The notes under the pieces are model-generated. The model was not told where the DNA came from. It was given only the letters and a program-made list of their open reading frames with translations, and did no database searches. Below, in pieces: positions 16,189 through 16,287 of a stretch of DNA of 28,551 nucleotides. Made by a program: the position numbers and the translations under genes. Source of the DNA: a candidate division TA06 bacterium SM23_40 (GTDB taxonomy: Bacteria; LJUI01; SM1-40); NCBI GenBank assembly GCA_001303705.1, contig LJUI01000014.1, positions 1 through 28,551 on the forward strand. Reading direction: 5' to 3'. Positions within the stretch are counted from its first letter, which is position 1, and each line of letters begins with the position of its first letter.

Positions 16189-16287
16189 CCCTTAACCTAG
16201 TCCTGAGAGGCTAGAAGGGAACTTGAAATGATCAGCACTCACTGCACCGAGCTTCCCTCTTGCAGTACGCAAGCAGGGATTTTTCTT
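16189..16287 (+). promoter_or_regulatory. PyrR-dependent attenuator of the pyrRBC operon
   Basis: AGTCCTGAGAGGCTAGAAGGG (16199-16219, of which AGTCC, GAGAGG and GAAGG are the key parts) closely matches the PyrR-binding loop of Bacillus pyr leaders. Three exclusive pairings are visible. The anti-antiterminator closes by CCCTT (16189-16193) with AAGGG (16215-16219); the antiterminator pairs AGGGAA (16216-16221) with TTCCCT (16253-16258); and the terminator stem starts at 16255. By the known mechanism, UMP-loaded PyrR stabilises the first structure, freeing the terminator and shutting the operon off when pyrimidines are plentiful. The location directly before pyrR supports the reading. Confidence 0.88.
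16255..16287 (+). terminator. Intrinsic terminator of the pyr attenuator
   Basis: CCCTCTTGC (16255-16263) pairs with GCAAG-C-AGGG (16269-16278, one bulged C) around loop AGTAC, followed by ATTTTTCTT. Its left arm is shared with the antiterminator described for the pyr leader. Confidence 0.85.

Follow-up and report, generated by a model that had tools for sequence, protein, structure and literature searches.

The pyrimidine leader of candidate division TA06 bacterium SM23_40 probably works by PyrR-controlled, ribosome-coupled transcription attenuation of the Thermus type, in which a ribosome translating a short leader ORF would decide whether RNA polymerase reads on into pyrRBC. The element lies in the window, the whole stretch of 28,551 nucleotides analyzed here (contig LJUI01000014.1), and at the sequence level it carries every feature of a PyrR attenuator (Table 1). 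The three stems that a sequence-only reading had placed between 16189 and 16287 are all found there, by sequence and by predicted fold.

Table 1. Features of the pyrRBC leader and operon, in window coordinates.
Feature	Position	Strand	Evidence or remark
PyrR-binding loop (anti-antiterminator)	16189..16219	+	RF00515 match, model R1 match, fold
AAGGG: loop 3' arm and proposed Shine-Dalgarno of leader ORF	16215..16219	+	Sequence, spacing
Putative antiterminator 5' arm, AGGGAACTTG	16216..16225	+	Pairs with 16248-16258; 67/5000 shuffles reach the duplex
Leader ORF, 28 codons	16228..16314	+	Translation; frame statistics across phyla
Putative antiterminator 3' arm, CGAGCTTCCCT	16248..16258	+	Overlaps terminator 5' arm
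Intrinsic terminator, predicted: hairpin 16254-16279 and T-rich tail	16254..16287	+	Hairpin of -13.7 kcal/mol
pyrR, attenuation protein / uracil phosphoribosyltransferase	16311..16859	+	NCBIfam NF003549, PDB 1UFR
pyrB, aspartate carbamoyltransferase (start uncertain; TTG 16856 overlaps pyrR stop)	16856..17815	+	NF002032 and TIGR00670 over cut-off
pyrC, dihydroorotase (start codon uncertain)	17796..19169	+	TIGR00857 over cut-off

The PyrR-binding loop (CCCTTAACCTAGTCCTGAGAGGCTAGAAGGG, 16189-16219) has a predicted folding energy of -11.0 kcal/mol and consists of a lower stem (CCCTT/AAGGG), an upper stem (CTAGTC/GGCTAG) and a hexaloop (CTGAGA). It fits the consensus built for the comparison from 69 loops, with its CNGNGA hexaloop, GUCC/GGC upper stem, UUAA internal loop and CC(U/C)U/A(A/G)GG lower stem, which confirms the near-consensus loop closed by CCCTT/AAGGG that had been read from the letters. 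Support from the Rfam covariance model, to which the same reading had pointed, is partial: RF00515 matches 16185-16287 over its full length (model positions 1-115 of 115, 39.6 bits, E = 7e-4 with a library of 4227 families), but the score falls below the curated gathering score of 54, so that a default Rfam search misses the element. No other RF00515 match occurs in the 2.88 Mb host genome, even at E = 10. Model R1, a covariance model of the loop alone derived from 69 loops, scores the window loop at 40.8 bits, the window itself being one of its 69 seeds. Folding z-scores for the whole leader were weak (-1.1 and -1.2) and uninformative.

The genomic context is that of a pyrimidine operon in a PyrR-bearing genome, with pyrR-pyrB-pyrC directly 3' of the RF00515-type site. 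PyrR scores 248.3 bits against NF003549 (cut-off 138), which assigns it to the PyrR family by a curated cut-off and predicts UMP/UTP-dependent binding of pyr mRNA. Its best solved relative is PDB 1UFR, a 'pyr mRNA-binding attenuation protein' (E = 3.7e-70), whose sequence is closely similar to the one at locus L007, grouped with Meiothermus as a pair in the PyrR+PyrB tree. A promoter scan gave one weak match only, inside pyrR, and none upstream of the loop. On the same strand, a 141-aa ORF (15739-16164) stops 24 nt short of the PyrR loop; it matches nothing in Pfam or NCBIfam, and transcription of the pyr leader may begin within or upstream of it.

The leader ORF, absent from the sequence-only description, runs from an ATG at 16228 to a TGA ending at 16314. 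It reads through the whole terminator hairpin, and its stop shares the sequence ATGA with the pyrR start, so that leader translation may also feed pyrR translation. The spacing from the GGG of its proposed Shine-Dalgarno to the ATG is 8 nt; ATG codons are enriched at such spacing among non-Bacillota loops, and the ATG of the window sits at the modal spacing. This ORF, whose proposed Shine-Dalgarno lies inside the loop and whose frame stays open across the terminator, points to ribosome-coupled attenuation. The window thereby shows the Thermus-type sequence pattern, which predicts that leader translation would prevent termination and that PyrR with UMP would restore it.

Comparison across phyla reveals that this pattern is shared. 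PyrR was searched in 98 genomes of 98 families and in named GTDB contigs, and the upstream regions of 149 pyrR genes were scanned, giving 73 good loops; the structural scan that selected them overlooks odd loop variants. Of these, 29 are from Bacillota and 44, including the window, lie outside named Bacillota, although some of the 44 may in fact be Bacillota. An ATG stands 7-14 nt after the Shine-Dalgarno in 28/44 of the leaders outside named Bacillota (0.099 expected per equal leader window; binomial p = 6e-18), most commonly at 9-11 nt. A terminator was detected in 26 of these ATG leaders, and in 24 of the 26 the leader frame stays open as far as mid-hairpin; the two shifted frames do so in 4 and 11 cases (Fisher p = 1e-7). 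Bacillota leaders show no such ATG enrichment (5/29, null 0.129), and restriction to named loci preserves the difference (12/17 outside Bacillota vs 5/29 in Bacillota, p = 5e-4). Antiterminator pairing behaves in the opposite manner: it is better than with swapped partners in Bacillota (p = 0.006) and no better than with swapped partners in the non-Bacillota ATG-leader group (p = 0.74). Leader stops gather at the pyrR start in a weakly non-random way (15/26 vs 8 and 7 in the other frames), the pyrR starts having been assigned by rule.

Larger samples of single phyla display the same arrangement. Among the best 30 Zixibacteria loci, 22 carry a leader ATG, and the frame is open in 9/9 where a terminator was detected; the best 30 Deinococcota loci include 23 with a leader ATG and an open frame in 21/22, although in these GC-rich genomes the two shifted frames also remain open in many cases (15 and 11 of 22). 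Leader type nevertheless switches often among relatives, with at least 12 changes on the PyrR+PyrB tree. At four loci (L216 and L218 of Zixibacteria, also L013 and L015) the loop abuts the pyrR start and leaves no room for a terminator, which suggests plain translational control. A literature search turned up no report of PyrR control through a leader ORF in candidate phyla.

The loops themselves are widespread. With the model built from 69 loops, a loop was found at E < 0.005 in 31/98 genomes from 98 different families (window included), and at E <= 0.01 in 67/80 genomes of Zixibacteria and 59/61 of Deinococcota. The surprise expressed in the sequence-only reading at a PyrR attenuator outside Firmicutes was overstated, because such loops are ordinary there. 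RF00515 at its gathering score recovers 5/20 non-Bacillota ATG-leader loci and 10/20 Bacillota loci; it overlooks the majority of non-Bacillota PyrR leaders and half of the Bacillota ones, and R1 finds many more, its covariation figures leaning upward because its seeds were chosen by structure. In a published study of 255 genomes (PMC3766115), the PyrR motif, with 211 sites, ranks as moderately widespread across taxa. Individual loci show further variation. Genome G036 has a second strong loop (C1:1182697-1182734) right after pyrR (C1:1182134-1182658, L012), apparently at the pyrR-pyrB junction. Loops L164 (G076), L180 (G046) and L181 (G069) are far from pyrR and presumably precede other pyrimidine genes controlled in trans. 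Locus L156 (G075:C36:6996-7033) is a strong loop (E = 3.6e-8) in a genome, 91% complete, in which no PyrR protein was found; either a contig is missing or the loop is read by something else.

Within the window, the leader ORF is combined with a good antiterminator pairing. The antiterminator arms overlap both the PyrR loop and the terminator and are mutually exclusive with each. The duplex (-16.5 kcal/mol) is better than 98.7% of the 3'-arm shuffles and is equalled by 23/5000 random 19-mers from the window, so the support from these tests is real but modest; the pairing also beats every one of 25 swapped partners. The terminator hairpin, with arms TCCCTCTTGC (16254-16263) and GCAAGCAGGGA (16269-16279) and a tail ATTTTTCTT ending at 16287, was missed by a simple terminator scan because of a bulge. 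For RNA ending at 16262 the antiterminator form is predicted to win (-18.2 vs -14.5 kcal/mol with the loop forced), and for RNA ending at 16285 the predicted minimum-energy fold is loop plus terminator. This predicted folding order of the growing RNA fits a switch.

From this architecture we infer PyrR binding, a response to ligand, ribosome loading and termination at the window. When pyrimidines are low, PyrR would be off the loop, and a ribosome would bind AAGGG and start at the leader ATG. Translating the 28 codons, it would enter the hairpin region and block hairpin formation, letting polymerase read on into pyrRBC; before the ribosome loads, the antiterminator pairing could also hold the terminator 5' arm. 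When UMP or UTP is high, nucleotide-bound PyrR would stabilize the loop, hiding the ribosome site and breaking the antiterminator; the terminator would then form and transcription would end near 16287. This ribosome-coupled model gains support from the same leader pattern in Zixibacteria, which neighbor the host by RpoB phylogeny along with other phyla, and in Deinococcota, for which the mechanism was originally put forward.

Because the antiterminator pairing is good, a Bacillus-type device may act by itself or together with the ribosome. Attenuation of this type only, with the antiterminator competing against loop plus terminator and the leader ORF incidental, was the model of the sequence-only reading. 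It draws on the overlap of the antiterminator arms with both other structures, on a duplex reached by just 1.3% of shuffles and on the predicted preference for the antiterminator before the terminator is made. Against it stand the strongly kept open frame of non-Bacillota ATG leaders, which pair no better than swapped partners, and the window ATG at modal spacing with its ORF through the terminator, and we consider it rather unlikely. Of the three-state scheme, the antiterminator pairing stands, as a possible addition to the ribosome-coupled mechanism; its role as sole device is not supported, given that the leader ORF runs through the terminator. Translational repression, in which PyrR would occlude the ribosome site of pyrR and the hairpin before 16287 would be no working terminator, has a counterpart in the Zixibacteria loops that abut pyrR (L216, L218). 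In the window, however, 91 nt separate the end of the loop from the pyrR ATG, and a hairpin with a T-rich tail intervenes, which makes this reading very improbable. A Shine-Dalgarno belonging to pyrR itself (within GAGGAGGGG, 16299-16307) lies 80 nt past the loop, and for this reason direct translational control of the gene was discarded.

The host is placed, from its gene content and phylogeny, as a diderm non-Firmicute. Its genome has five Omp85 matches, and next to the operon the window encodes an M1-peptidase-like protein (13297-15411) with FlgD-Ig and a T9SS type A sorting tail, which supports an FCB-like host; together with the RpoB placement, these bear out the claim of a PyrR-type attenuator in a non-Firmicute. 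Elsewhere in the window of this outer-membrane-bearing host, a bacterial large SRP RNA (181.5 bits, 23630-23896) lies directly upstream of dnaX (23925-25607). A search for relatives in the host phylum returned the host genome alone and no close relatives. In the best PyrR+PyrB tree the window branches first in a Zixibacteria/KSB1/Neomarinimicrobia group (SH-aLRT 89; other thirteen rows 99), apart from Bacillota, and in the RpoB tree the host takes the same position beside these phyla (99), so that both trees give one FCB-like neighborhood. Acquisition of the pyrRBC block with its leader from Bacillota, rather than inheritance, is compatible with an AU test that does not reject grouping the window with seven Bacillota (p = 0.22) and with PyrR identities that reach about 70% to Bacillota and Omnitrophota alike. 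The concordant placements weigh against it and make it improbable; because the two trees agree, a Firmicute transfer is not needed. Between the 'wider ancestry or transfer' left side by side in the sequence-only reading, wider ancestry is the better option, with a loop common in many phyla, and ancestral presence appears the simpler reading.

These results correct the picture of PyrR RNA control as essentially a Firmicute trait, and they show that the Rfam cut-off hides many PyrR leaders. Most of the non-Bacillota leaders examined appear to be read by a translating ribosome and not by an antiterminator. We tentatively propose that ribosome-coupled PyrR attenuation prevails, and is probably old, outside Bacillota, that Bacillota use the RNA antiterminator, and that the dual leader of the window is intermediate or dual-mode; this broader scheme is possible rather than probable. 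The contrast offers a case, open to testing, in which the same protein-RNA contact is coupled to different expression platforms. The switch would allow the cell to turn off its uracil-synthesis genes once pyrimidines are abundant. The cross-phylum pattern is of more interest than the window element itself, whose kind is already known.

Among known systems, the pyrR leader of Thermus and other Deinococcota resembles the window in its layout: the AAGG loop arm is the Shine-Dalgarno, an ATG follows about 10 nt on, and a short leader ORF runs through an intrinsic terminator to overlap or adjoin pyrR, with 28 codons both in the window and in the Thermaceae locus L007. For Thermus strain ZO5, Van de Casteele et al. 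(1997) reportedly proposed that it is a translating ribosome, and not an antiterminator, that prevents the terminator. Unlike the window, Deinococcota leaders as a group show no antiterminator pairing beyond that of swapped partners. The Bacillus subtilis pyr attenuators (RF00515) share with the window the GAGAGG core, the CCCTT/AAGGG stem and the mutually exclusive antiterminator and terminator, but the window scores under the gathering cut-off of their family and has a leader ORF, a feature not enriched in Bacillota loci; its genome holds a single PyrR loop, against two near pyrR at several Bacillota loci. In translational repression of the Mycobacterium type, the PyrR loop hides a ribosome-binding site. 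In the window, the site so hidden would instead initiate a leader peptide ahead of a terminator, not a biosynthetic gene.
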